From positions 1 to 20,121 of IMG/VR virus record IMGVR_UViG_3300006754_000263: a DNA stretch of 20,121 bases. One strand, written 5' to 3'. The stretch comes from a virus. Shown one piece after another: positions 1,024-20,074 of the stretch. Each line of letters opens with the position of its first letter. Position 1 is the stretch's first letter. The notes below the pieces were generated by a model. The model was not told where the DNA came from. It made no database searches and saw nothing but the letters and a program-made list of their open reading frames with translations. Position numbers and translations under genes: made by a program.

Positions 1024-2034
1024 TTAATTCTTAACAATTCCTGCTAGAAGTTTCATCCTATCCGTTGCCGGGTCGGATGATTTTGCCTTGGTTGCCCGTG
1101 GCAATGTGGAAGATCGACGTTCTACAACTTCGCTCAGTGATTTTGGCGTCTTCTTAGAAGAAGAGCCCACCGCGCTCTGAAGTGTTTCAAATATCATCTT
1201 CGCCTCATCTACGGAATCTGCCTTTGAAATAGCTTCGACAATCTTATTTTTTTGTCGCTCATTCAAGGAGTCACTAATCAAAACTTGATTCGTATAGAGC
1301 AATCGTGCATTTTGAAGATTTGTGCCTTCTACATGGTCACGCATCTTCAATGCAACGTTCTTAATTTTATTTTTTTCTTCTTTAATTGATTTAATTTGTT
1401 TTGTATATTTTTCAAGCCTTTCTTCAAGCTCTTTTACATTTTTTCTTAATTCTTCGTTCTCTTCGGCCAGTTCAGAATCTTTTTCCTCTGCAACAGCTTG
1501 CTCTTCTGCCTCTTCAAGCTCAGCAGAATTGGCACCAGCCCAACCGTCTGACTTTGGTGTGACGTCTACAGTCAATGTCTCAATCAAATCTGCAAGGAGT
1601 TCTTCGCTCAAATCAACTTCTTCTTCCAAAGCCATAGCGCTTGTTAGACCCATGTCTGCTGCTTCTTCTTCCTCGGCTTCTTCTTCTGCGTTAGCTGCGG
1701 CAACCAATTGGTCCAAATCAATTTCAACTTTCTTATTGGCTGGGTCTTGCATATCTGGACAAGCACAAAGGTCTTCGCCGTCTACAGCAGCAGGAACCAA
1801 TTGGTCGGCCACAGCCTCATCTGATTCCATTCCTTCTTCGCCACCCAATTCCATGTCTAACTCGCCACCAAGTCCAAGAGGGTCCTCCTCTTCTTCAGGC
1901 TGCTCTAACAAAGTCGTAACAGCGTCTTTGATTTCAGCCTCATATTTTTCAATAATTGCTTGTTCAGCATTACGCAATGCGGCTTCTTTCAAGGCTTCTG
2001 CATCGATAATTGCCTCTTGTAACATTTTGGACAT
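1024..2034 (-). CDS. 22: Prohead core scaffold protein, T4 gp22-like
   Basis: This is the internal scaffold around which the capsid shell would assemble and which the prohead protease would then degrade. The protein is 336 aa. I chose the ATG at 2034 (MSKMLQEAIIDAEALKEAAL), not the non-ATG start 11 codons upstream, because an AGGAG lies at 2046-2042 with good spacing. The N-terminal helix is followed by a very acidic centre (runs of E and D from about residue 45 to 200), then a lysine/glutamate coiled coil (about 200-250), and a basic tail with DPATDRMKLLAGI near the end. This layout, and the position directly before the capsid gene, match gp22. The acidic centre creates a long antisense open frame on the plus strand, which I regard as a shadow. 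Sequence identity to T4 gp22 is expected to be low, so the call rests on architecture, context and the termini. Confidence 0.82.
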   Translation of the reverse strand: MSKMLQEAIIDAEALKEAALRNAEQAIIEKYEAEIKDAVTTLLEQPEEEEDPLGLGGELDMELGGEEGMESDEAVADQLVPAAVDGEDLCACPDMQDPANKKVEIDLDQLVAAANAEEEAEEEEAADMGLTSAMALEEEVDLSEELLADLIETLTVDVTPKSDGWAGANSAELEEAEEQAVAEEKDSELAEENEELRKNVKELEERLEKYTKQIKSIKEEKNKIKNVALKMRDHVEGTNLQNARLLYTNQVLISDSLNERQKNKIVEAISKADSVDEAKMIFETLQSAVGSSSKKTPKSLSEVVERRSSTLPRATKAKSSDPATDRMKLLAGIVKN

Positions 2035-2616: not shown

Positions 2617-4917
2617 CTACTTTTTAATTCCCAGGCGCTCAAGAAGAAGTTCCTGAGATTCTAATACAGTAGATAGTGTCTTGCGCAAGGTTTTGATTTC
2701 AGCATCTTGATGTTTGACTGCCTCAGTGAGAACAGCAGTTAGCTTGGAATAATCAATCCCCATACCGCCATCGGAAGCCACAGCAACAATCTGCGGCAAG
2801 ACTTTTTTCACATCCTGAGCAAGAAACCCAATCTGCTGCGCTCTCCACCCTTTGACCTTCCTGTCTGATGATTTCAAGTTATAGGTAACACCTTGCAATC
2901 TATTGATTTTATCTATTGCATTCGTCATTGGCCGAATATCTTTCTTCAAGCGTTCGTCTGAGTGAGTAACAAAAGCTTCTGCACGAATTTTATTTGTATT
3001 GTTGTCGCCGGTAGCTACATCAATCATATAGTCGTCGTCGTGGTCGTTACCAATAGTCAGAAGTTCTACAGCCTCAGCTCCCTGGCTGCGCCAGAATTGT
3101 AATTCTTCATCACCGGATGCTGAGCCATCCCATTTAAAATGAGTGCCATTGCTATCACCCCAGAGATAAACCGTCGTGCCATTGCTTCCACCGGCAGCGC
3201 CACTATTAATTGTCCCGCTGAGCACTGGAGACGTCAAGGTCTTATTAGTAAGAGTGTCCGTTGTGGCTCTGCAAACTATAGTATCATTTGACACACCGGG
3301 CACCGTGATAGTCCCATCACCCCCAAGCGAGTCTTGGACAACCATAGTCATGTAGTTGCTGCCTTGGTCGCTATCCTCGTAAAATCTAATAAAACCAACG
3401 CCAGTATCACCATTTTTAACGGAGAGACCGGCATTACATGTCACAGAACCAGAGCTTGCAATTGCGCCAATTGAATTGATTGTGCCAACCACTTGCATAT
3501 TGCCAGAGCCGGACACTGTGGTAAAAGAGGCAGCAGCGGGGGTCGTTGCGCCAATTGTTGCGTCAACTGTACCGGCATTAATGTCAGCAGTTGTTGCAAC
3601 TAAAGAACCAATTGTGCCCAACGATGTCAAGCTAGAGGCAATAACAGCGCCTCCAAGCGTTGTGGCATTAAGGACTGAGGTACCGTTAATGGCATAGTCC
3701 CCGCCCGTAATAACATCAAAACCTGCACCAACAGCTGAAGAGCCACTGACTTTAAGGCGGCCACCATCAGAGGCACACAATAAGGTAACTTCTCTATCAG
3801 TGGTAGAGCCACTGATGAAGAAGCCTGCACCAGAGTTGGTGCCGCGAGTACCGGCTGTATTACCCGTGCCTCTTGAAAGCTCAATTACGCTATCTTCAAT
3901 CCGCAAGTTCGCGGTATCAATGGTGGTTGTTGTACCGTTGACAATAAGGTCTCCAGTAACAGTGAAGTTTCCAGCAGCAGAAGCAACTGTAAGAGCGCCA
4001 GCAGAAAGGGTCGCATCACCGGAAACCGTAGTCCACGACGGGTCGCCGTTGACGTCGGCAACAAGAATCTTTCCGTTTCCTCCTACTGCGAGGGCAGCTG
4101 GGTCGCCAGAGGCATCACCATAAATAATCTTGCCGCGTACAAGTCCTGCCATTTTAGCCAAAGTAACTGCATTGTCTGCAATCTCGTCGGTGTCAACTGC
4201 ATTGTCTGCCAGATGAGCATTGTCAATAGAACCATCAACATAATGTTCTGAGTCAATTGCATCATCTGCTATTTTAGTTCCATCTACTGAATCAGCTGCT
4301 AAATGAGCTAGGTCAATAGAACCATCAGTATAGTGTTCTGAGTCAATTGCATCATCTGCTATTTTAGTTCCATCTACTGAATCAGCTGCTAAATGAGCTA
4401 GATCAATAGAACCATCAACATAATTATCACTGTCAACTGAATTGGCTGCCAGATGATCATTGTCAATAGAACCATCAACATAATTATCACTGTCAACCGA
4501 ATTGGCTGCCAGATGAGCATTGTCAATAGAACCATCAACGTATTGGTCGCTGTCAACCGAATTGTCTGCAAGCGTCAGCGCACCACCAGCTGCGATGGTT
4601 GCGTCACCAGAAACGTCAGCGAAGACGGCATCTTGGAGATTTGAAAAAGTAATCTTTTTCTCCGTGCCTGCATCAGAGAACATGAAATGGTCTGCGGTCT
4701 GGTGAATGTCAGCGCTCCCTAGAGCGCTCAGCGCGTCAATATTAACAGAGGCAGGGTTGGAAACAGTACCAGCGCCGTCCGCTATATATATCTTTGCTGC
4801 CGTCCCCGAACCAGACACATAAAGCATCGCGGTTCCTGATACTCCGGGTGCTGTGTAGCCGTCTGCGGAAGCCGTTGCTTCCAGTGTTACATTATATTGT
4901 CCGTAGGTTGTAGCCAT
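2617..4917 (-). CDS. Tail fibre protein with decapeptide repeats and C-terminal peptidase S74 chaperone domain
   Basis: A 766-aa fibre-like protein. Residues 1-117 are beta-rich and Gly/Ala-rich (possible attachment part). Residues 118-257 are fourteen exact ten-residue repeats of the type DGSIDNAHLA / ADSVDGTKIA. Residues 258-650 are a low-complexity Gly/Ser/Thr shaft with typical fibre phrases such as TTDTLTNKTLTSPVLSG. Residues 653-766 form a peptidase S74 intramolecular chaperone: SDERLK at 653-658 carries the Ser653/Lys658 pair, with the same five-residue spacing as the endosialidase catalytic dyad, followed by IGFLAQDV and a C-terminal coiled coil. In this family the domain trimerises the fibre and then cleaves itself off just before the serine. 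The start at 4917 has GGAGG at 4931-4927. It is likely a host-recognition fibre; receptor and exact virion location are unknown. Confidence 0.85.
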   Translation of the reverse strand: MATTYGQYNVTLEATASADGYTAPGVSGTAMLYVSGSGTAAKIYIADGAGTVSNPASVNIDALSALGSADIHQTADHFMFSDAGTEKKITFSNLQDAVFADVSGDATIAAGGALTLADNSVDSDQYVDGSIDNAHLAANSVDSDNYVDGSIDNDHLAANSVDSDNYVDGSIDLAHLAADSVDGTKIADDAIDSEHYTDGSIDLAHLAADSVDGTKIADDAIDSEHYVDGSIDNAHLADNAVDTDEIADNAVTLAKMAGLVRGKIIYGDASGDPAALAVGGNGKILVADVNGDPSWTTVSGDATLSAGALTVASAAGNFTVTGDLIVNGTTTTIDTANLRIEDSVIELSRGTGNTAGTRGTNSGAGFFISGSTTDREVTLLCASDGGRLKVSGSSAVGAGFDVITGGDYAINGTSVLNATTLGGAVIASSLTSLGTIGSLVATTADINAGTVDATIGATTPAAASFTTVSGSGNMQVVGTINSIGAIASSGSVTCNAGLSVKNGDTGVGFIRFYEDSDQGSNYMTMVVQDSLGGDGTITVPGVSNDTIVCRATTDTLTNKTLTSPVLSGTINSGAAGGSNGTTVYLWGDSNGTHFKWDGSASGDEELQFWRSQGAEAVELLTIGNDHDDDYMIDVATGDNNTNKIRAEAFVTHSDERLKKDIRPMTNAIDKINRLQGVTYNLKSSDRKVKGWRAQQIGFLAQDVKKVLPQIVAVASDGGMGIDYSKLTAVLTEAVKHQDAEIKTLRKTLSTVLESQELLLERLGIKK
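4147..4566 (-). repeat. Coding tandem repeat: fourteen decapeptide units in the fibre shaft
   Basis: Fourteen 30-base units encode a register of the form x-x-(S/A)-(V/I)-D-x-x-x-(Y/L/I)-(A/V/T), without a single insertion or deletion. Units 6-8 are copied as units 9-11, giving a 90-base offset direct repeat: 4244-4311 and 4334-4401 are identical over about 68 bases. The regular hydrophobic spacing suggests a beta-solenoid or coiled shaft. Confidence 0.85.
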
Positions 4918-4980: not shown

Positions 4981-5847
4981 CTACTTACGATTAAGAATTG
5001 ATTTAAGCATATTAGAGAAATTCTCAAACCTTTTCTTTTGAGCATGGGCCAAAGTTTCAATTAAATCAGTCAGTTTATTAAACTGTTCTTTTTGAATAGA
5101 AATTATTTTTGTTTGCTCTTTTACTGCCTCAACAAGCACTGCATTAATGCGAGTATAGTCCATGGCGATTGCATCAATGCCATTCTCTTCATAATCAACG
5201 ACACACGGAAGAGTTTTACCTACATCCTCGGCAATAAAGCCGATATCTGTGCGTCCGCTGTCGTTCCATTTATAGGTCACTCCATCGATTTTACTAAGAA
5301 TCTCCATAGGATTTTGAATTCTTTCAACGCCACTCTTATATCGTCTTGAAGAATAGGTTACATAAGCGTTGGCCTTTACGCGGCCTGCGACACCATCAGT
5401 GTTGGGAAGTGTCAAGCGGTGGGTAACGTCGCCACCAGACGCACCAATGCCAAGGTAACCAGTGCTATCATTATACAATAAACTAGCCGCACCACCCATT
5501 GAGCCACCATTATTATATTGTAATTGTGTATCTGACCCCGCTACCGACGTCGCACCAGTTGTAAGGTCTGTCTCAGATAAATCATTTGATCTCCAATAAA
5601 CTTTTCCATCGGCTTTGGTGTATAAGAACCCGCCATTGCCTGCGCCTGGGTCGGCGGGGGCTGAACCCTGCTCAGCCGTCAGTTGAATTAACCCAACATC
5701 CAACTCATCCGTGGCCTTGGCGAAAGTAAGACCGGAATCTCCTGCCAATACCCCAGCATCATTAAATTGGACCTGAGTATTTGAGCCGCCTATAGTAACA
5801 GTACCAGCACCAGCACCAGCTTTTCTAAATTTTCCAAAACTTCCCAC
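4981..5847 (-). CDS. Short fibre protein with C-terminal peptidase S74 chaperone domain
   Basis: A 288-aa protein that looks like a compact version of the neighbouring fibre. Residues 1-16 are Gly/Ala-rich (GSFGKFRKAGAGAG). Residues 17-160 contain two phrases of the form GSNTQVQFNDAGVLAGDSG and GSDTQLQYNNGGSMGG, common in phage fibre shafts, then YLGIGASGG. The S74 domain begins at about residue 163. SSRRYK at 166-171 preserves the Ser-Lys pair at the five-residue spacing but replaces the usual DER-L with SRR-Y; IGFIAEDV and MDYTRINAVLVEAVKEQ follow, ending in a coiled coil. The start is a GTG at 5847, with AGGAG overlapping the stop codon of the preceding gene, so translation is probably coupled. 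The protein is probably an auxiliary fibre or tip; self-cleavage is expected from the dyad but unproven. Confidence 0.8.
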   Translation of the reverse strand: MGSFGKFRKAGAGAGTVTIGGSNTQVQFNDAGVLAGDSGLTFAKATDELDVGLIQLTAEQGSAPADPGAGNGGFLYTKADGKVYWRSNDLSETDLTTGATSVAGSDTQLQYNNGGSMGGAASLLYNDSTGYLGIGASGGDVTHRLTLPNTDGVAGRVKANAYVTYSSRRYKSGVERIQNPMEILSKIDGVTYKWNDSGRTDIGFIAEDVGKTLPCVVDYEENGIDAIAMDYTRINAVLVEAVKEQTKIISIQKEQFNKLTDLIETLAHAQKKRFENFSNMLKSILNRK

Positions 5848-6505: not shown

Positions 6506-6934
6506 CTACCTTCCTTTTCCGAAAACACCAAGTTTAGATATATCAACACCTGGATCGTTGGGGGCGACCCCATCTAAGGCTGAACTTGGTGCTGCTGGGC
6601 CGCGAGAAGGCTGGCCAGCTTTGTTAATTGGGTTGACCCCCTCAAAGACATCAATTCCATTAAAGCGCTGACCCATAGACTCAGAAAGAGATTTCCTCTG
6701 CCCCTCTAGCTCGCGACGGTGGTCGCGACGTATTTCTTCTAACGCAGCGTTACGCTCGCGAGGAGCATCTTCAACGGGGGTGTGTGCAACAGGTTCAGTT
6801 AGCAACATCTGCGGGCCAAGGCCCTTTACAATCTCAGTGATTATTCCAGAAAGCACCCCATCATCAAAGATAACTTCTTTGATGCATTGCTTAATCAGCG
6901 GCTTTAAAGTTTGTTTAAGCTCGTCACGTTTCAT
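6506..6934 (-). CDS. Conserved-looking phage protein of unknown function, 142 aa
   Basis: I cannot assign a function. The product has an N-terminal amphipathic helix (MKRDELKQTLKPLIKQCIKE followed by VIFDDGVLSGIITEIVKGLG), a charged central helix rich in Glu and Arg (about residues 58-88), and a Pro/Gly/Ala-rich C-terminal tail ending in LGVFGKGR. There is no membrane helix or cysteine pair. The start ATG overlaps the stop of the prohead protease by four bases (ATGA), and its own stop lies one base before the bS21 GTG start, so the three are translationally linked. Its position after gene 21 suggests a prohead core or head component, possibly cleaved in its disordered tail. That role is inferred from position alone. 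Confidence 0.65.
   Translation of the reverse strand: MKRDELKQTLKPLIKQCIKEVIFDDGVLSGIITEIVKGLGPQMLLTEPVAHTPVEDAPRERNAALEEIRRDHRRELEGQRKSLSESMGQRFNGIDVFEGVNPINKAGQPSRGPAAPSSALDGVAPNDPGVDISKLGVFGKGR
6509..6515 (-). promoter_or_regulatory. Ribosome binding site that decides the bS21 start
   Basis: AGGAAGG on the minus strand ends four bases before GTG 6504 and overlaps the end of the 142-aa gene. It supports the GTG start and a 72-aa bS21. Confidence 0.6.
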
Positions 6935-7539
6935 TCCAAACCCACTATTATATTATTCAGAGCACGGTTAATGCGGTCAGACTTATTAAAAATGTTTGAC
7001 TCTTTGTGTTCCCTCATCATATAAGCTCCGGGGGTTGACGGTTCTGAGACAAAATCAAAACAAATTAATTGAAAATCATCTTCAACAACAGCCTGACCGC
7101 TGTTCGATTCATGCACCGAACCTAAACCTCGGGACGAAATCCCCAGAGTGACACCAGAGCTAACCAAGTCTTGTAAAATCCTTCCCGATGGGGTATTCAA
7201 AACTTTCACTTTGCCCATCACACTGTCTCCATCCCACCAGATATCAGTAACCATATGCGAAGCATTTTTTAGATTAATAACTGAGTCTTCTGGGTGGTCT
7301 AACTCACCAAGGGCGCGACGTTCTTTGACAAGTTTTTGATAATTTTGGACCTCGCGCCTAAGAACTTCAGCGGGGTAAACACGACCATTGCCATTAGGCG
7401 TGTTCGCTTTCTGCATCACGCCGGATAAGTAAACAGTACCACCGCGCACCTCTAGTTTCTCCGCTTCAGACAGGTAGTCTGTGCAGACTCCCCCTTCACA
7501 AAGTTCATAATACTCTCTTAGAATTAATTTATTTGTCAT
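6931..7539 (-). CDS. 21: Prohead core protease, T4 gp21-like
   Basis: A serine protease of the T4 gp21 (peptidase U9/herpes-assemblin-like) family that cleaves scaffold and capsid proteins inside the prohead. The 202-aa protein has the family landmarks: LSGVMQKANTPNGNGRVYP (39-56), ALGELDHPED with the candidate catalytic His82, then NASHMVTDIWWDGDSVMGKV, and GVTLGISSRGLGS with the candidate catalytic Ser135 or Ser136, followed by FDFVSEPSTPGAYM. Length is close to T4 gp21 (212 aa). The start at 7539 follows AGGGAA. The stop overlaps the next ATG as ATGA. Its expected targets, scaffold and capsid, lie about 5 kb downstream, separated by the fibre cassette, whereas in T4 genes 21, 22 and 23 are adjacent. 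Confidence 0.9.
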   Translation of the reverse strand: MTNKLILREYYELCEGGVCTDYLSEAEKLEVRGGTVYLSGVMQKANTPNGNGRVYPAEVLRREVQNYQKLVKERRALGELDHPEDSVINLKNASHMVTDIWWDGDSVMGKVKVLNTPSGRILQDLVSSGVTLGISSRGLGSVHESNSGQAVVEDDFQLICFDFVSEPSTPGAYMMREHKESNIFNKSDRINRALNNIIVGLE

Positions 7540-8527: not shown

Positions 8528-9348
8528 TATGCTTCAATCTCCCTAGCCAAATCCTGAATCTTTAATATCTGCATAAGAGATTCTTTGCTGATCTTATTCT
8601 TTTTAAAGCTCTCTAAGATAGTCAGGACCTTGTTAGCCTTATTAATCATATCCTCGTCCTGTTTAATCTCGTCCATCTTCAAACTGGAAGACAAAACTTT
8701 CTTCAATCGTCCAATTTCCTCATTCAAGAAAACTTTCAAGCCAACCCCATTGTCAGAAAATGATAGAATATAATTTTGAAGTAAGCTACTTTGCCCTTCG
8801 CCAAGCATATTGATATATTTTTGATTAAATTTCTTTATAAAATTTTTGATAACAAGATTATCAACTTGCACGGGATTCTTATTCCCCTCTGACGATGACC
8901 AAGTCATTGATTCTAAAACAACATCTTCTAAAAGTATGCGCTTAGCCGGGGGGACATCGCCATTAAAAATTTGATAGACTGTAGCCAAGTTTTTATAATT
9001 CGGAACAAATGTATTAAATACTTCCTTGGGCAAGTCTTTATTCATTCGCTTGATAATCGCACTCTGCTCAGTAAAAATATTCTTCTTGTCAAGCTTTTTA
9101 TATTCCTTTCTCACCTCAACTAGAAGTCGGTTGGCAGAAGACTCGCTAAGATTCTGCGACTCACACAGCGAACGATATAAATTCAATTCCTTGTGCAGCA
9201 ACGAATCAGCACCAAAGTATTCCTTTAAAATGTTCAACGTTGCTTCTTTGGTTTTGGCGTCTTTGCGAATAACTGACCGGGTTAGTTCCCTAACCAGAGT
9301 TTCAAACAAAAATGCCGTATTTCTCTTTTTATTATGTTTTAGTTTCAT
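8527..9348 (-). CDS. Uncharacterised head-cluster protein, 273 aa
   Basis: Function unknown. I chose the ATG at 9348 (MKLKHNKKRNTAFLFETLVR) over a TTG eight codons upstream; this still leaves a 17-base overlap with the portal gene. The protein is almost entirely alpha-helical and rich in Lys, Glu and Leu, with helices separated by short turns and no cysteine pairs or membrane segments. The KKRNTAFLFETLVRELTRSV start is distinctive and, from memory, resembles a hypothetical family next to the portal in marine T4-like phages. Candidate roles are a prohead core or scaffold partner near the portal, as with T4 gp67/gp68, or a neck factor. These rest on position and helical content only. Confidence 0.65.
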   Translation of the reverse strand: MKLKHNKKRNTAFLFETLVRELTRSVIRKDAKTKEATLNILKEYFGADSLLHKELNLYRSLCESQNLSESSANRLLVEVRKEYKKLDKKNIFTEQSAIIKRMNKDLPKEVFNTFVPNYKNLATVYQIFNGDVPPAKRILLEDVVLESMTWSSSEGNKNPVQVDNLVIKNFIKKFNQKYINMLGEGQSSLLQNYILSFSDNGVGLKVFLNEEIGRLKKVLSSSLKMDEIKQDEDMINKANKVLTILESFKKNKISKESLMQILKIQDLAREIEA

Positions 9349-11233
9349 TGCTTTTAGACTCCAACTCCTCAATTAACACTTTAACACCACGATTAACTTC
9401 AAAAACACTATTCTCTTCCAAAGAATAATTAGAATCTTGTTCCTCCGAAAGCCTTGTTGCGCTTGCAAGACTTTTCAACTCGTCATGACCCTTAAAAGTG
9501 TTTCTTTTTGTGGAGCTAGCCATTTCTCTAGCATATACCCCATGATAGCTGCGCTTAAGCGCTCCCGATTTCCTTCTGTCCACGTTAACTGGCGTATGAT
9601 ATTTGCCTTTTGCGCCTGGGGTCAAGTAGGCATCATCATCGCGACGGGCTGGAGCAGCAAGGAGTGGGCCTTCTTCGCCTTCTTCCTCTCCACCTTCTTC
9701 GCCGCCAAGCTCCTCTTCGTCGCCAAACTCTAAGCCGCCACCGGCTCCCATTCCGCCACCTTCTTCTCCCTCGGCTGCGCCAGCAGCTTCTTCTTCCGCT
9801 GCCGCTTCAAGGGCCGCTTCGTGCTTCTTATCAAAGAACATCTCGCGAAGATTCTGAAGGTGTTCCTCGTCAGAAAGACTAAAGATCTTCTTAGCAATCC
9901 AACGCTTACTGAAATATCCCTCAGTCGCTCCACTAGCTACTTCAAACTTTGTACTCCAGTGCTCAAGTTCTTGAAGCTCCGCGATGCGGGACGGGTTATT
10001 TAATTTAAGCCTAAACGAAACCAAATCATCGCCACGATATCCTAGTGTGTATAAATGGATAACGCCAACCTTTTCTATTTCAGAAAGAATCGCTCGTTGC
10101 ATTCGTTGAATTGTTCTTGCAAAACGAATATCCTTTTGTGCCAAGGTGGCCTTATCCTCATCTGCCCCTTCACCCCTAGAAAGGTAAGACATGGGTACCT
10201 TTAACGCCGAAAACAATTTATCTCGCAGATACTTTACATCATCAATATCACCAGTATATGTTCCTCCAGGGAGACTTTCAATCCTAGATGACGCACCGCC
10301 GCGCATAGGAACAAAATAATCTTCGTCAACGCTCATAGGATTATAGCGTAAGTCAACACGACCAGTATCAGGATCAACAACCTGCGCTCGTTTCATTTGC
10401 GTCATGACTTTTTGCATGTACTGCTCAATATCATTGGGCGCAATGTTCCCGACATCAATATAAAAAACTCTTCTTTCTGGGGAACGGACAATGCGATAAG
10501 CCATCATAGCATCTTCCAACAAAGTAAGTTGCCTCCAGATGCGACGAGCGGGCTCTAAAGCTGATGTTCCATAAGGAGAGTATTTATCATTGCCGAGAAT
10601 TCTAAAATGTGCTATCTGCCAGTTCTCAAAAGTTAAACCACCCGAATTCCATTGAAACTGAACATAATTTGGATTCGTCTTGTCCTCGCCTTCTAACCTT
10701 TCAAGTTCATGAGGTGGCAGACCGATAGCATTTTTAATCCCGTCTGTCTCATCAATGTCCAAGTACAAGAAAAAATCCCCATACTTGCACATAGTCCGAC
10801 ACCAACCAAACAAATTAAATTCAATATTCAAAATATTGTGATATAAGGTTTTTAAAATTGTTTTAATTTCACCGTTTGGACAATCAATCGTCATCATCGG
10901 TGACAAAGAAGTAGAGGTTGTCATTTCATCGGCGTAAATATCTAGAGCAGAAGCAATTTCTGGAGTGTATTCCATCTGGTCGAAATCAGAATAGCGCTCA
11001 CCGCGATTCTGCGCAGTCATATGAGCGCTTGATAAGTTCTCAAAAGGATTGTACTGGGTCTTTTTAAATTGCTGGCCGGTCGTAGAAGTAAATCTATATT
11101 TATCAAGCTGACGGCGACGAGTTGAGCGGGGCGTCTGGGTTCTATAATTTACAATGGGGCCAGAAAATAGCCGAGTGAGCCTCTTAAAAAGTTGTGATTC
11201 AGGATTTCTGGGATTGTTTTCATTTTCTGCCAT
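9332..11233 (-). CDS. 20: Portal vertex protein, T4 gp20-like
   Basis: Forms the twelve-subunit ring at one capsid vertex through which DNA enters and leaves and on which the prohead starts. The 633-aa protein shows gp20 landmarks: EIASALDIYADEM (92-104), MCKYGDFFLYLDI (148-160), VDEDYFVPMRGGASSRIESL (302-321), YLRDKLFSALKVPMSYLSR (335-353) and LAQKDIRFARTIQRMQ (364-379). It is longer than T4 gp20 (524 aa) because of an acidic, glycine-rich stretch at about 471-525 followed by a basic C-terminal tail that replaces or extends the usual end. The start at 11233 follows AAGGA. It lies 15 bases after the terminase gene, and its end overlaps the 273-aa gene. The genes for tail sheath and tube, which lie between 17 and 20 in T4, are absent here. 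Confidence 0.93.
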   Translation of the reverse strand: MAENENNPRNPESQLFKRLTRLFSGPIVNYRTQTPRSTRRRQLDKYRFTSTTGQQFKKTQYNPFENLSSAHMTAQNRGERYSDFDQMEYTPEIASALDIYADEMTTSTSLSPMMTIDCPNGEIKTILKTLYHNILNIEFNLFGWCRTMCKYGDFFLYLDIDETDGIKNAIGLPPHELERLEGEDKTNPNYVQFQWNSGGLTFENWQIAHFRILGNDKYSPYGTSALEPARRIWRQLTLLEDAMMAYRIVRSPERRVFYIDVGNIAPNDIEQYMQKVMTQMKRAQVVDPDTGRVDLRYNPMSVDEDYFVPMRGGASSRIESLPGGTYTGDIDDVKYLRDKLFSALKVPMSYLSRGEGADEDKATLAQKDIRFARTIQRMQRAILSEIEKVGVIHLYTLGYRGDDLVSFRLKLNNPSRIAELQELEHWSTKFEVASGATEGYFSKRWIAKKIFSLSDEEHLQNLREMFFDKKHEAALEAAAEEEAAGAAEGEEGGGMGAGGGLEFGDEEELGGEEGGEEEGEEGPLLAAPARRDDDAYLTPGAKGKYHTPVNVDRRKSGALKRSYHGVYAREMASSTKRNTFKGHDELKSLASATRLSEEQDSNYSLEENSVFEVNRGVKVLIEELESKSNETKT

Positions 11234-11248
11234 TATAATTTATCCTTT

Positions 11249-12823
11249 TCACTTCAAGAGCCAACCGAATTCTTTTCTTTCTTCAATTGCTTTTCTTTGC
11301 ACGGCTCTCTTGTGCCCCGTCATGCCGGGGATAGTTGTATCTAACATTGTAGACGATTTTGTCATAGAATTTAAGATAACCTTTTTATATTCTGAATCTC
11401 TCTGATTAACAACTAAAGCGGTGTCGCGCACCCAACAAGCAATTGCCAAACTCATAACCAAATCATCATTGTATGAGCGCATTGCTTCGGGCTTGCCATT
11501 GTTCCAAATAAAAGTTTTCATCTCATTTAAGGATCTAGAAGAGCGTAATGTAATTAGTTTATTTCTAATGAATTCCTCTAATTTCGCGACAATCAGGGGG
11601 CGAGTTTTCATCGATGTTGTAAAGCCCGGTACAGAATTGCTGCGATGCTCGGCTTGATACGAATCAATATATTCATGAGTGGCTTTGATTGAATGATAAA
11701 GGTTGGGGTATTGAAGCTCCATTAATTTTTCCAATACTGCGAAACCGATATTGTTATTTTCCACAACAAGCATGCAATCTCCATATTCTCTGCCCGTTGT
11801 ATTAAGCAAATTTGCATACATGTCCAGGTTAGCTTTTCCCTGATACTCTGCTACTTGGTGTAGAGTGTGTAAATCAATCACATGAAAAGCAGAAAAGTCT
11901 TTTCCGTCGCCACGCGCAACATCCGCTACCAACAAATAAGAGTGTTCAGGATTGCAGGTTTCCCATATCCACAAGTTCCTATCAAAGCCGGTTCTGTATT
12001 GAGGTTCCAAGATGTCTTCATCTTCAATCCTTGACAAATCCTCTGGGTTCAGCACTGTTTCGCCAGACATATTAAAGCTGCACTCAAGCTCTTGGGCAAT
12101 CTCGCGTTTGGACATATTTCTCGTTTCTTTCTCAAACCATTCCAAGTCCCGGTCGGGGTGTGCATCCCATGGCAAAGTTGTTGGATGAAAATCATTCATA
12201 CCAGCGTCCGCATCCACGAATGTTTGATGAAACCAGTTGCCAACACCATTAGGCGTGGACAACGCGATGCAACGACCGCCAGTTGATAGTGTGGGATATA
12301 AGCCGGTCCACAACTCTTCCAGCCCATCAACATGCGCGGCTTCGTCAATAACAAGCAACGACAACGCTTCAGAACGACCAGCATCAGCACTGGTTGAAGA
12401 TGCTTTAATTTGCGAGCCGTTTGATAATTCGAACGAAGTCCTGTTATCCACAACAATAGGCGCGACCATCAACCACGGTGGGAGATGCTTGATTATGTGC
12501 TTAACTTTTTTAACAAGATTTGTGGCAGTACCAAACTTGGTCGCCATCACAAGAATATTTTTGTCGCGATGAAACATCATCATCCAGACAACGTAGGCGG
12601 CAGAAATCGTAGAAATACCCAACTGACGCGCCTTAAGAATTACATTAAACCTGTGGTCGTTGAAGCTTCTTATAAGGTCTTCTTGAAAATCATAGGTCCG
12701 AAAAGGAATCAACCCCCGAAGTGGGTGAGAAATCTTCGCATAATTATTAATAAAATAAACAGGATCCTTGCCAGACTTGACAATCTCTTTTATAATTTCC
12801 TGTTTCGTTAATTGATAGCTCAT
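11249..12823 (-). CDS. 17: Terminase large subunit, T4 gp17-like
   Basis: The DNA-packaging motor: an N-terminal ATPase pumps DNA through the portal and a C-terminal RNase H-like nuclease cuts the concatemer. The 524-aa protein (T4 gp17: 610 aa) has all key motifs. The ATPase carries a Walker A variant KARQLGIST (64-72), Walker B LLVIDEA (156-162, Asp160 and Glu161) and coupling motif STPNG (189-193). The nuclease acidic triad is Asp301 in VADVARGDGKDFS, Glu355 in VVENNNIG and Asp453/Asp454 in NDDLVMSLAIA. No small terminase subunit is recognised next to it, though the 188-aa gene just upstream sits where one would be expected. The ATG at 12823 has only a weak AGAG upstream. The family call is very secure. 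Confidence 0.95.
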   Translation of the reverse strand: MSYQLTKQEIIKEIVKSGKDPVYFINNYAKISHPLRGLIPFRTYDFQEDLIRSFNDHRFNVILKARQLGISTISAAYVVWMMMFHRDKNILVMATKFGTATNLVKKVKHIIKHLPPWLMVAPIVVDNRTSFELSNGSQIKASSTSADAGRSEALSLLVIDEAAHVDGLEELWTGLYPTLSTGGRCIALSTPNGVGNWFHQTFVDADAGMNDFHPTTLPWDAHPDRDLEWFEKETRNMSKREIAQELECSFNMSGETVLNPEDLSRIEDEDILEPQYRTGFDRNLWIWETCNPEHSYLLVADVARGDGKDFSAFHVIDLHTLHQVAEYQGKANLDMYANLLNTTGREYGDCMLVVENNNIGFAVLEKLMELQYPNLYHSIKATHEYIDSYQAEHRSNSVPGFTTSMKTRPLIVAKLEEFIRNKLITLRSSRSLNEMKTFIWNNGKPEAMRSYNDDLVMSLAIACWVRDTALVVNQRDSEYKKVILNSMTKSSTMLDTTIPGMTGHKRAVQRKAIEERKEFGWLLK

Positions 12824-16918: not shown

Positions 16919-19900
16919 TCATTGATTTATGTATGCGAAACCATCTCTCTTGTCAATAACCAGCTGGGTGTCTACACAGTCTTTAAGATTGTCTAAATGA
17001 GAAATTAACAAGACTGTCTTAAAGTGTTCTTTAACCATATCCATCATCCGAACAAAACCTTCCATATTATCCTCATCCAAGGCTGTGCCGGGTTCGTCAA
17101 GAATAAATATATTCCCTTTCGGCAACGAAGAGACATTTAATAACGCAAGACGAATCGCCATGGCAGAGATGGTTTTTTCCGCTCCAGACCCTAGTTCCAG
17201 TGGTCTTGGTTCAAAGCGAGCGTGCTTGATATACATATCTAGCTTTCGCCCATCATCCTCCAAAAAGACTTCAAAGTTTGCAATATTGGTGAGAATCTTA
17301 GCAATTTCATTATTAATAGTCGGCAGCTTGCGCTTGATAATATCATATGCGATTCCGTTGCTATGCATACATTTCATATAAAGGTCATACGCTTCATAGT
17401 CCTCGCGAAGCTGTTGCAATTCGTTCTTCTGGTCTTCAAGGTTTTTAATATTCTGCTCTATAGATCCGTGTACTTTATAAAGCTCCAGTATCTCTGTTTC
17501 GCATGTTTCCAGGTCGGCTTCATAAGCAAGCAAAGCCTCTTTGCTTGATTCAATGGAGCGAAGAAGCTCATTGTAGTTTTCAATCGCCTCTTGGTTTTGA
17601 TAATAATAATCAATATCCTTTTGATTATCAGCTAGGTCTACATCAATTGAAAATAACTGATTGTTATTCCTTTCAATGTCCAAGCGAAGTTTTACGTTTT
17701 CCCCCTCTGCACTAGCCTTCTTTTCTAGCAGCTTATCGTACTTCGCAAGGTGGTCTTCTACGGTGGATATGTCTAGCGCTAATATTTCTGCGCCACACTC
17801 ATCCTTCTTGCAATCCAAACCTGAAATAGTATTTCTAACATCCTCAATTAACTTTGAAGCCTCATACGCATCTTTAATAAACTTGCATGACGTCACAAAC
17901 TGATTGCCACACGGGATGCCCTCTAAGTTTTTTGCACGCAAGGAATAGATATCAAATGTCCTCGCTTCATCTTCTATCTTCCGCGTCAGCTCGTCAAGAA
18001 CCTGAGATTTGTCAGCGGCAATCTGCTTCTTCTCCTCTAACACTTCAATATCAAAGTCGTGCAAGAACTCTTTTGCTTTTTTAATGAATAAGTTGCCCTG
18101 TTCTATCCCCGCAGCATTACTTTTATTTTTTTTCTCTATTTCTTCCCGCCTCAACACAAACTGTTTCTTCTTGTCTAGGCAGTCTTCAATATCAATAGGA
18201 TCAGTGCGTACAGCGTCTACCTTATCAACAAGCTTTTTTAGTTTCTTCTCTTTCTTCTTAATCTTCTTCTTTATAGATTCACAAGCCTTCTGATGTGTAA
18301 GATTTTTCACCTCATTATCAAAAAGTATCTGCTTCGCTTCTCCAATTTCTAAATCAAAGTCTCTCCCCTCCAGCAATTTAATCGCACCCCTCAAATCTGA
18401 AGCGTTCTCCTTAGCTAACCTATATTTTTTATCAAATATCTCTAAATCTAAAAACTTTGCAAGAATTTCTTTTCGTCTAGTTGACCCCTCGCTAATAAAG
18501 GCTAGGGAGCCCAGCTGAGAAGCCATTGACGTTAATAAGAAGTCTTCAAGACTGCCAAACACTTTACGAATGTTCGCGTCTGTCCCAGCTCTAGTTAGCC
18601 CATTCAAGCTAACACTTTCACGGGTTGCCGTATCAGTATTATAAAACTCCACATCCGTTTTTGCTTCAATCGTTTCCTGACCATGCAACTTCTTAACGTA
18701 TTTCTCAGACCTCCGCTCTACCACATAAGATTTATTACCAATTTCAATTGAGATCTTGCCGCTGCCCCAATCCTTTGTCTGGTTAATAATGTTTAAGTTC
18801 TTCCTAACATTTTTAGAGGTAGAATTAAAGAGTCCATATAAAAAGCTATCAATAATGCTTGACTTTCCAGAAAAGTTCTTACCAAAAATACCCACAATCC
18901 CGTTCAGGTTTGTAAAATCAATACGATTAGCTTCTCCATAGTTAAAAAGATTGTCCCACTCCAAAGAAACCAAACGCCAATTGATATTACGCGCTATTTC
19001 CTCGTCTTCTTCTGCCATAGAATTATACTTCTTATTCATAACATAAACGCGGTCAAGCGTTTTGTCGTCCACTTGGTAATCCTTGAGGTATTCTGCAATT
19101 AATTCTTCTTGCACTGCTATATTTCGTAAATCCTCAAGTTTTAGACCATCTGTCAACTCTTCTACCGAGCCATATTGGCCAGCAGCTCTATTTAAAAAAG
19201 TAACCGACTCTGGTCTAAATCGTGACCTTGCGACATCTACAGCCTTGCGCATTCTATCAAGCGGAAGAACACTATTAGACACCAATCTAATTCTAGCGCC
19301 CGGTAAAACTGTCGCACTCTTTGGAATTCTCCCTTTCGGGGTTAGTTCAACAGTAACAAACGGTTTTGGATTCTCCAATGTGCAATGCTTGCAAGTAAAT
19401 GAGGTTTTATCTTTAATATCCCAAACCAAAAACCCCTTATCGTTTGTCTCGCCATGGTTCTGCTGCACAGTAGAACCAGGATATCGGATCCGCCCTGCCC
19501 TATCTAATGCCTGATTGGTTTTATGAATATCTCCAAGGAAAGCATAATCAAAATCATCAAAAATACCAACATCATTCTCTCCATAATCTATAGTCCAGCC
19601 CGTATCCGTCTCACAGCCGCTTACAGACCCATGGTATAGAGCTATATTAACCTCATCCGATATTGTTGGCTTTATCCAATTGTCTTCATCAAAAACTGAC
19701 AAGACATTTAGAGTAAAACCGCCTTCAAGTTTGACCTCCCCAGATTCTTTTAATAAAAACAAGTCAGGGTGCGCCAATGCATCTACAATCGGCGTTAAAG
19801 CGTCTTGCCTGCTTGAGTTGCGCAAGTTCCCATCATGATTCCCCAAAATTATATAGGTTGGGGCGATGTCAGCGAGGTTTTTAAAGAAGCCCGCGCACAT

Positions 19901-20074
19901 TTCAACAAATTCTGGAGAGATTTGTGTTTTTGTGTGGGCAATGTCGCCACAGTGGATGATGTAATCCACCTTTTCTTCTTTAAGACGCGCATAAAGCAAC
20001 TCAAACACGGCCCTATACTCAAAATGATACTTCAAATTCCTGATATGTGTATCAGCAATGTGCGCAAACTTCAT
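16919..20074 (-). CDS. Fused Mre11/SbcD nuclease - Rad50/SbcC ATPase (T4 gp47 and gp46 in one chain)
   Basis: A 1051-aa protein combining both subunits of the DNA end-processing complex. Residues 1 to about 350 are a Mre11/SbcD phosphoesterase: DTH (8-10), CGDIAH (42-47), GNHD (78-81), LYHG with His148, and GDIH (181-184, where most relatives have GHxH). A capping region with CKHC (228-231) follows. From about residue 366 a Rad50/SbcC ATPase begins: Walker A GKNFSGKS (398-405), long coiled coils (about 560-900), an atypical hook with Cys722 and Cys730 in PCGNQFVTSC, signature LGSGAEKTISAMAIR (961-975), Walker B IFILDEP (989-995) and H-loop His1026. In T4 these are separate genes needed for recombination-dependent replication and host DNA breakdown. 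The frame is uninterrupted and both halves look intact. Its ATG at 20074 has a weak ribosome binding site. Confidence 0.92.
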   Translation of the reverse strand: MKFAHIADTHIRNLKYHFEYRAVFELLYARLKEEKVDYIIHCGDIAHTKTQISPEFVEMCAGFFKNLADIAPTYIILGNHDGNLRNSSRQDALTPIVDALAHPDLFLLKESGEVKLEGGFTLNVLSVFDEDNWIKPTISDEVNIALYHGSVSGCETDTGWTIDYGENDVGIFDDFDYAFLGDIHKTNQALDRAGRIRYPGSTVQQNHGETNDKGFLVWDIKDKTSFTCKHCTLENPKPFVTVELTPKGRIPKSATVLPGARIRLVSNSVLPLDRMRKAVDVARSRFRPESVTFLNRAAGQYGSVEELTDGLKLEDLRNIAVQEELIAEYLKDYQVDDKTLDRVYVMNKKYNSMAEEDEEIARNINWRLVSLEWDNLFNYGEANRIDFTNLNGIVGIFGKNFSGKSSIIDSFLYGLFNSTSKNVRKNLNIINQTKDWGSGKISIEIGNKSYVVERRSEKYVKKLHGQETIEAKTDVEFYNTDTATRESVSLNGLTRAGTDANIRKVFGSLEDFLLTSMASQLGSLAFISEGSTRRKEILAKFLDLEIFDKKYRLAKENASDLRGAIKLLEGRDFDLEIGEAKQILFDNEVKNLTHQKACESIKKKIKKKEKKLKKLVDKVDAVRTDPIDIEDCLDKKKQFVLRREEIEKKNKSNAAGIEQGNLFIKKAKEFLHDFDIEVLEEKKQIAADKSQVLDELTRKIEDEARTFDIYSLRAKNLEGIPCGNQFVTSCKFIKDAYEASKLIEDVRNTISGLDCKKDECGAEILALDISTVEDHLAKYDKLLEKKASAEGENVKLRLDIERNNNQLFSIDVDLADNQKDIDYYYQNQEAIENYNELLRSIESSKEALLAYEADLETCETEILELYKVHGSIEQNIKNLEDQKNELQQLREDYEAYDLYMKCMHSNGIAYDIIKRKLPTINNEIAKILTNIANFEVFLEDDGRKLDMYIKHARFEPRPLELGSGAEKTISAMAIRLALLNVSSLPKGNIFILDEPGTALDEDNMEGFVRMMDMVKEHFKTVLLISHLDNLKDCVDTQLVIDKRDGFAYINQ

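Follow-up and report, generated by a model that had tools for sequence, protein, structure and literature searches.

Does the long minus-strand frame at one end of this virus contig encode both halves of an Mre11-Rad50 enzyme in a single polypeptide, or have two neighbouring genes been joined in error; and, if the fusion is genuine, what would such a chain do? The window, meaning the whole 20,121-base stretch analysed here, is a virus contig with a T4-type head module and tail-fibre-like genes, all on the same strand as the frame in question. That frame runs uninterrupted from an ATG at 20074 to a stop at 16919-16921. The initial annotation had described 1052 codons at 16919-20074, which is correct as 1051 aa and a stop, but omitted the strand.

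The fused gene and its junction

Sequence searches against Pfam, PHROGs, NCBIfam and the PDB agree on an N-terminal Mre11/SbcD-like metallophosphoesterase followed by a Rad50/SbcC-like ATPase (Table 1). Pfam places Metallophos at residues 1-185 (E 4.5e-14), then AAA_23 at 371-613 (E 4.6e-6) and SMC_N at 370-1035 (E 8.9e-9), and the same chain matches both phrog_100, 'SbcD-like' (7e-34), and phrog_77, 'SbcC-like' (5e-51). Conservation is uneven along the protein, mean identity among relatives being 24% in the Rad50 coiled coil as against 65-68% in the heads.

Table 1. Positions of the fused gene, its parts and the T4-type head genes in the window
Feature	Residues	Position	Strand	Basis
Fused Mre11-Rad50 gene	1051 aa + stop	16919..20074	minus	Pfam, PHROGs, relatives
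Mre11 calcineurin-like nuclease domain	about 1-235	19370..20074	minus	Metallophos 1-185; AlphaFold2 model; Foldseek
Mre11 motif V, G181-D-I-H184 (Asp replacing P. furiosus His206)	181-184	19523..19534	minus	228/229 relatives
Mre11 capping domain	about 236-297	19184..19369	minus	AlphaFold2 secondary structure
Rad50-docking Mre11 C-terminal helix-loop-helix	319-356	19007..19120	minus	Model helices; alignment conservation
Fusion linker (invariant R362-N363 shortly before W366)	357-364	18983..19006	minus	Conservation; model
Rad50 N-terminal ATPase lobe (lobe I)	365-544	18443..18982	minus	AAA_23; conservation; model
Walker A	398-405	18860-18883	minus	Conservation
Rad50 coiled coil	about 545-903	17366..18442	minus	AlphaFold2 model
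Zinc hook CX7C (PCGNQFVTSCKFIKDA)	722-730	17885..17911	minus	Alignment
Rad50 C-terminal ATPase lobe (lobe II)	908-1051	16922..17353	minus	PDB Rad50 matches at 896-1046; conservation
Lobe II motifs: signature SGAEK, Walker B, H-loop	963-967, 989-994, 1025-1026		minus	Conservation
T4-type terminase large subunit		11249..12823	minus	Terminase_6N, phrog_2
T4-type portal gp20		9332..11233	minus	Portal_T4 E 6.2e-79
T4-type prohead protease (gp21-like)		6931..7539	minus	Peptidase_S77 E 5.1e-35

A single-chain AlphaFold2 model, calculated with 62 window and IMG/VR sequences as input (mean pLDDT 85.1, pTM 0.57), contains every Mre11 and Rad50 element, arranged in the proper order. Docking helices at 319-333 and 337-356 lead through an eight-residue linker into the first strand of Rad50, and the sole stretch with pLDDT below 50 is residues 298-311, between the capping domain and the docking helices. 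As the pTM is limited for one chain with a long coiled coil, docking within the chain stays a prediction. When the model was compared with the PDB using Foldseek, the matches were the Rad50 chains of Mre11-Rad50 complexes and Staphylococcus aureus SbcD (7dog; TM 0.67-0.68 by target). The top viral matches are mimivirid proteins, with E values down to 3e-63, and those listed first in BFVD are full-length giant-virus 'DNA repair exonuclease' proteins of Tupanvirus, Harvfovirus and Yasminevirus.

Residues N347, R362 and N363 are present in all 81 aligned relatives and W366 in 80 of them; on this alignment, few stretches of the family are as well conserved as the junction, which is under strong constraint. 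No internal start codon is conserved among the 81 relatives. Met353 was considered as an internal start and rejected, being neither conserved nor preceded by a visible ribosome-binding site. In the Thermotoga maritima complex the chain ends lie approximately 28 angstroms apart, a geometry that has been argued to permit fusion through a linker of 9-12 residues (PMC3175470); the modelled helix-loop-helix and eight-residue linker fit this published argument from chain-end distance (PMC3175470). The conserved junction and the retained docking helices support the original suggestion that the arrangement is structurally sensible, and probably functional rather than accidental.

A protease could in principle process the chain into two subunits, making the working enzyme an ordinary two-protein complex. 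The poorly modelled residues 298-311 would offer a site, and after a cut there the docking helices would remain attached to Rad50, resembling the split genes of a 286-kb contig described below. The junction proper at 357-364 is, however, structured and invariant, with no flexible cleavage site, and we regard such processing as very unlikely.

Relatives, carriers and gene neighbourhood

IMG/VR was scanned three times, led in turn by proteins from the window, Microcystis phage Mel-JY01 and a megaphage source, and the best 80 of more than 500 confirmed relatives were taken from each scan. By our own count, the best matches listed comprise 236 loci on 226 contigs, a sample that favours sequences matching the fused queries well and over their full length, such that distant unfused relatives may be under-counted. 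Matches to the Mre11, Rad50-N and Rad50-C profiles lie in one open frame at 226 of these loci; at the remaining ten, the junction is crossed in one frame and the gene is cut by the end of the sequence. A split at the junction, or a two-gene arrangement, was found at none of the 236. Identity to the window protein is 46-59% in its own clade and about 30% in the sister clade. The same fusion recurs on hundreds of phage contigs. Between residues 340 and 370, no relative shows a stop, a frameshift or two overlapping genes, which the initial annotation had named as signs of two genes joined by mistake.

An assembly or sequencing error fusing two neighbours could be imagined from T4 and Escherichia coli, which keep separate genes in the same order, sbcD and sbcC overlapping by four bases in E. 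coli and 47 and 46 being nearly adjacent in T4. It is hardly credible here, given that the same fusion is found on hundreds of independent contigs, in the complete record of Mel-JY01 and in two megaphage genomes, one copy of which keeps it despite an insertion, and that the linker is conserved. The 226 full-length fused loci, with the rest cut only by sequence ends, exclude both chance and an assembly artefact. The window gene is confirmed as a real Mre11-Rad50 fusion with an intact frame. Insertions of 200-1000 bases that seemed to be present at two other loci (L046 and L071) arose from the joining of separate tblastn pieces, and both frames are ordinary, at 1065 aa.

The carriers were characterised from 15 large records: 12 IMG/VR contigs of 104-204 kb, Mel-JY01, and the 484-kb and 735-kb megaphages. 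All 15 have a T4-type portal and 13 a RecA-family recombinase gene, and in 12-13 no other convincing copy of Mre11 or Rad50 accompanies the fused gene. One of the large records (G005) has a weak additional SbcD-like match. The 735-kb megaphage (LR756501; positions 451881-452144, 670999-672753 and 278537-282121) has separate SbcD-like and SbcC-like loci as well as the fused gene. In the 484-kb megaphage (LR756508; L005 4600-5620), about 1 kb of sequence interrupts the fused gene and separates Mre11 motif V from the QQN motif; this insert contains a 305-aa frame for an HNH/TnsA-like endonuclease, and neither the interrupted locus nor the window has any Rfam match. In the window itself, two tail-fibre-like genes lie side by side on the minus strand (2617-4917 and 4981-5847), both ending in a Peptidase_S74 self-cleaving chaperone domain.

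A primase homologue, identified through PHROGs and Pfam, lies upstream on the same strand at every one of the 183 loci that have 2.5 kb or more of upstream sequence (a few contigs being counted twice), and a RuvC-like resolvase, identified in the same way, at 61 of them. Only 47 bases of the window contig precede the fused gene, and any primase neighbour would fall beyond the contig end. These neighbours bear on whether the main role is the destruction of host DNA, or the defeat of host defence, rather than replication. In T4, the annotation of gp46/47 gives them a necessary part in host-DNA degradation as well as recombination, but the constant primase, the frequent RuvC-like linkage and the RecA-family gene in most large records point to recombination and replication, and a mainly host-directed role seems unlikely.

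A scan of cellular genomes gave 12 matches, all in metagenome-assembled genomes (MAGs) and mostly on short contigs. One candidate cellular carrier, the 'chromosome' of a WOR-3 MAG (CP070664; L249 3734-10052), was rejected: the piece is bounded by runs of N, carries RuvC-like, primase and structural-type genes, and is likely to be misplaced phage DNA or scaffold. Plasmids yielded just partial, weak matches to the fusion. A lone 459-aa Mre11-like protein with GHIH and YPGS motifs is encoded on a conjugative plasmid (L266 4437-5816) and on similar plasmids of Burkholderia, Cupriavidus and Caballeronia.

Active sites, zinc hook and proposed function

The initial annotation credited the chain with every Mre11 motif and every Rad50 ATPase motif. 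The second part holds, with Walker A (GKNFSGKS), signature (SGAEK), Walker B (FILDEP) and H-loop (SH) all found and their residues kept across the aligned relatives. The first holds for D8, H10, D44, N79, H80, H148 and H184, but two positions are substituted, by His47 and Asp182. Amongst 229 distinct sequences, D8, D44, N79, H80, D81, H148 and H184 are essentially invariant, and position 10 has His in 210 of them and Gln in 12. Position 47, where GDxxD has its third Asp, is His in 223, and position 182, equivalent to Pyrococcus furiosus Mre11 His206, the first His of GHxH, is Asp in 228. The general features of the Mre11-Rad50 superfamily are all present: the two-metal phosphoesterase site (with one ligand substituted), Walker A and B, the signature, the H-loop and a coiled coil with a cysteine hook.

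These nearly fixed substitutions could be taken to mean that the nuclease half is catalytically dead through the change of His206 to Asp, the fusion serving to tether DNA or in a structural, SMC-like role. Yet the other metal ligands are near-invariant in a highly diverged family, which would not be expected of a dead site; Asp is able to bind metal, and the Mre11 of a Vibrio T5-like phage also has GDLH. We therefore consider an inactive tether quite unlikely. From the alignment, Asp182 in place of a His metal ligand may mean that activity or metal preference differs from that of canonical Mre11.

The zinc hook of the window protein is of the CX7C rather than the CXXC type. Amongst the 81 nearest relatives, 68 have CX6C or CX7C and ten have CX2C. 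The form of the hook varies inside one clade (window residues 716-738 in the alignment), CX6-7C and CX2C occurring alongside rarer CX1C and CX3C; extended hooks are also seen in Moorella phage and fecal phage Rad50.

We consider it highly probable that the protein serves a T4-like tailed phage as its Mre11-Rad50 (SbcDC) end-processing enzyme, acting as a single chain in the manner proposed here. Two fused chains would pair through their Rad50 heads and Mre11 domains, giving the usual M2R2 head as a homodimer, in which ATP-driven motions of Rad50 would gate the two-metal nuclease site, exposing it and closing it off. This site would resect DNA ends, producing 3' overhangs for the phage RecA-family recombinase, and the overhangs would feed recombination-dependent replication and repair, as they do with T4 gp46/47. 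The likely function, judged from sequence, is DNA-end resection for recombination-dependent replication. Fusion of the two parts would fix their stoichiometry and ensure their co-inheritance, and the short linker would pin the docking helices beside the root of the chain's own Rad50 coiled coil.

Origin and comparison with known systems

When a tree was built for each half of the protein, the window and Mel-JY01 clades grouped with the sequences from the 735-kb and 286-kb records in both, while gp46/47 of T4 and of cyanophages and SbcCD of E. coli fell outside. This group has support of 100/99 for Rad50 and 81/86 for Mre11, with long branches flagged and archaeal and eukaryotic sequences left out. 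The simplest reading of the trees is that one fusion occurred in the ancestor of this group.

Within this group, a 286-kb jumbo contig, filed under a Bacteroidales MAG, has separate Mre11 and Rad50 genes about 14 kb apart. Its 277-aa Mre11 (L255 7992-8825) stops in the capping domain, approximately where the 792-aa Rad50 gene product (L261 1372-3750) begins, the latter retaining the remainder of the capping domain and the docking helices; its Mre11 motif is GHIH, as opposed to GDIH in the fused clade. This looks like a secondary split rather than the ancestral operon. A broader scheme, offered tentatively, is that, in a large clade of T4-like phages, one ancestral fusion replaced the two-gene complex by a single-chain enzyme whose second metal site (Asp for His206) and hook (mostly CX6-7C in the window clade) depart from the canonical forms, that the primase and RuvC-like linkage would make up one recombination-to-replication module, and that the re-split contig would indicate that the docking helices must stay with Rad50.

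The SbcDC protein of the fecal phage contig MT837445 (L008) likewise joins Mre11 and Rad50 in one chain and has an extended hook of the CX6C form. It branches away from the window clade, its companion in the Mre11 tree being the unfused protein of a Moorella phage, and so is probably a separate fusion.

A named phage with a similar arrangement is Microcystis phage Mel-JY01, whose WWT39521.1 is a full-length fusion with 32% identity over the whole chain, a primase upstream and a T4-type portal in the same genome; it differs in having a CXXC zinc hook and in belonging to the sister clade. It is annotated as an 'AAA domain containing protein', the Mre11 half having been missed, and now provides a named source of the fused enzyme. 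T4 gp47/gp46 are the homologous nuclease and ATPase of a T4-type phage and probably function alike, but are encoded by two genes with 46.1 and 46.2 between them, where the window has one. Bacterial SbcD and SbcC share the superfamilies and architecture but are again two genes, and the window protein falls far below the cut-offs of both NCBIfam models (43 against 478.5 bits for TIGR00618, sbcc; 42 against 77.65 for TIGR00619, sbcd).

A fusion of Mre11 and Rad50 was already published in 2011 by Yoshida, Claverie and Ogata, who described it in Mimivirus R555 as well as in twelve further sequences, among them some from eukaryotes, from Clostridium kluyveri plasmids and from Bacillus phage 0305phi8-36 (PMC3175470). 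They reported Asp for His206 and His for the third Asp of GDxxD in R555, inferred from mostly short metagenome reads that abundant aquatic homologues were phage-borne, with fusion confirmed for a few long reads, and reasoned about T4-like recombination-dependent replication (PMC3175470). Compared with R555 as described there, the window protein shares the domain order in one chain, both active-site changes, the docking region and the short linker, and lies outside both the canonical clades and gp46/47; it belongs to the R555-type fused family. It differs in being 1051 aa long, against 1351-1379 aa for giant-virus homologues such as Tupanvirus A0A6N1NVE8, and in being found in a T4-like tailed phage.

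No later literature on the phage clade of the fusion was found. What is added here to the 2011 description is the identity of the carriers, now shown to be T4-type tailed phages, the near-universal fusion among the sampled relatives, the constant primase and frequent RuvC-like neighbourhood, the fixed active-site changes, the variation of the hook, the re-split contig and the proposed common fusion ancestor. As a single chain of fixed stoichiometry, the phage enzyme would also be a convenient model for the cooperation between nuclease and ATPase in Mre11-Rad50, which in T4 and bacteria are the products of two genes.
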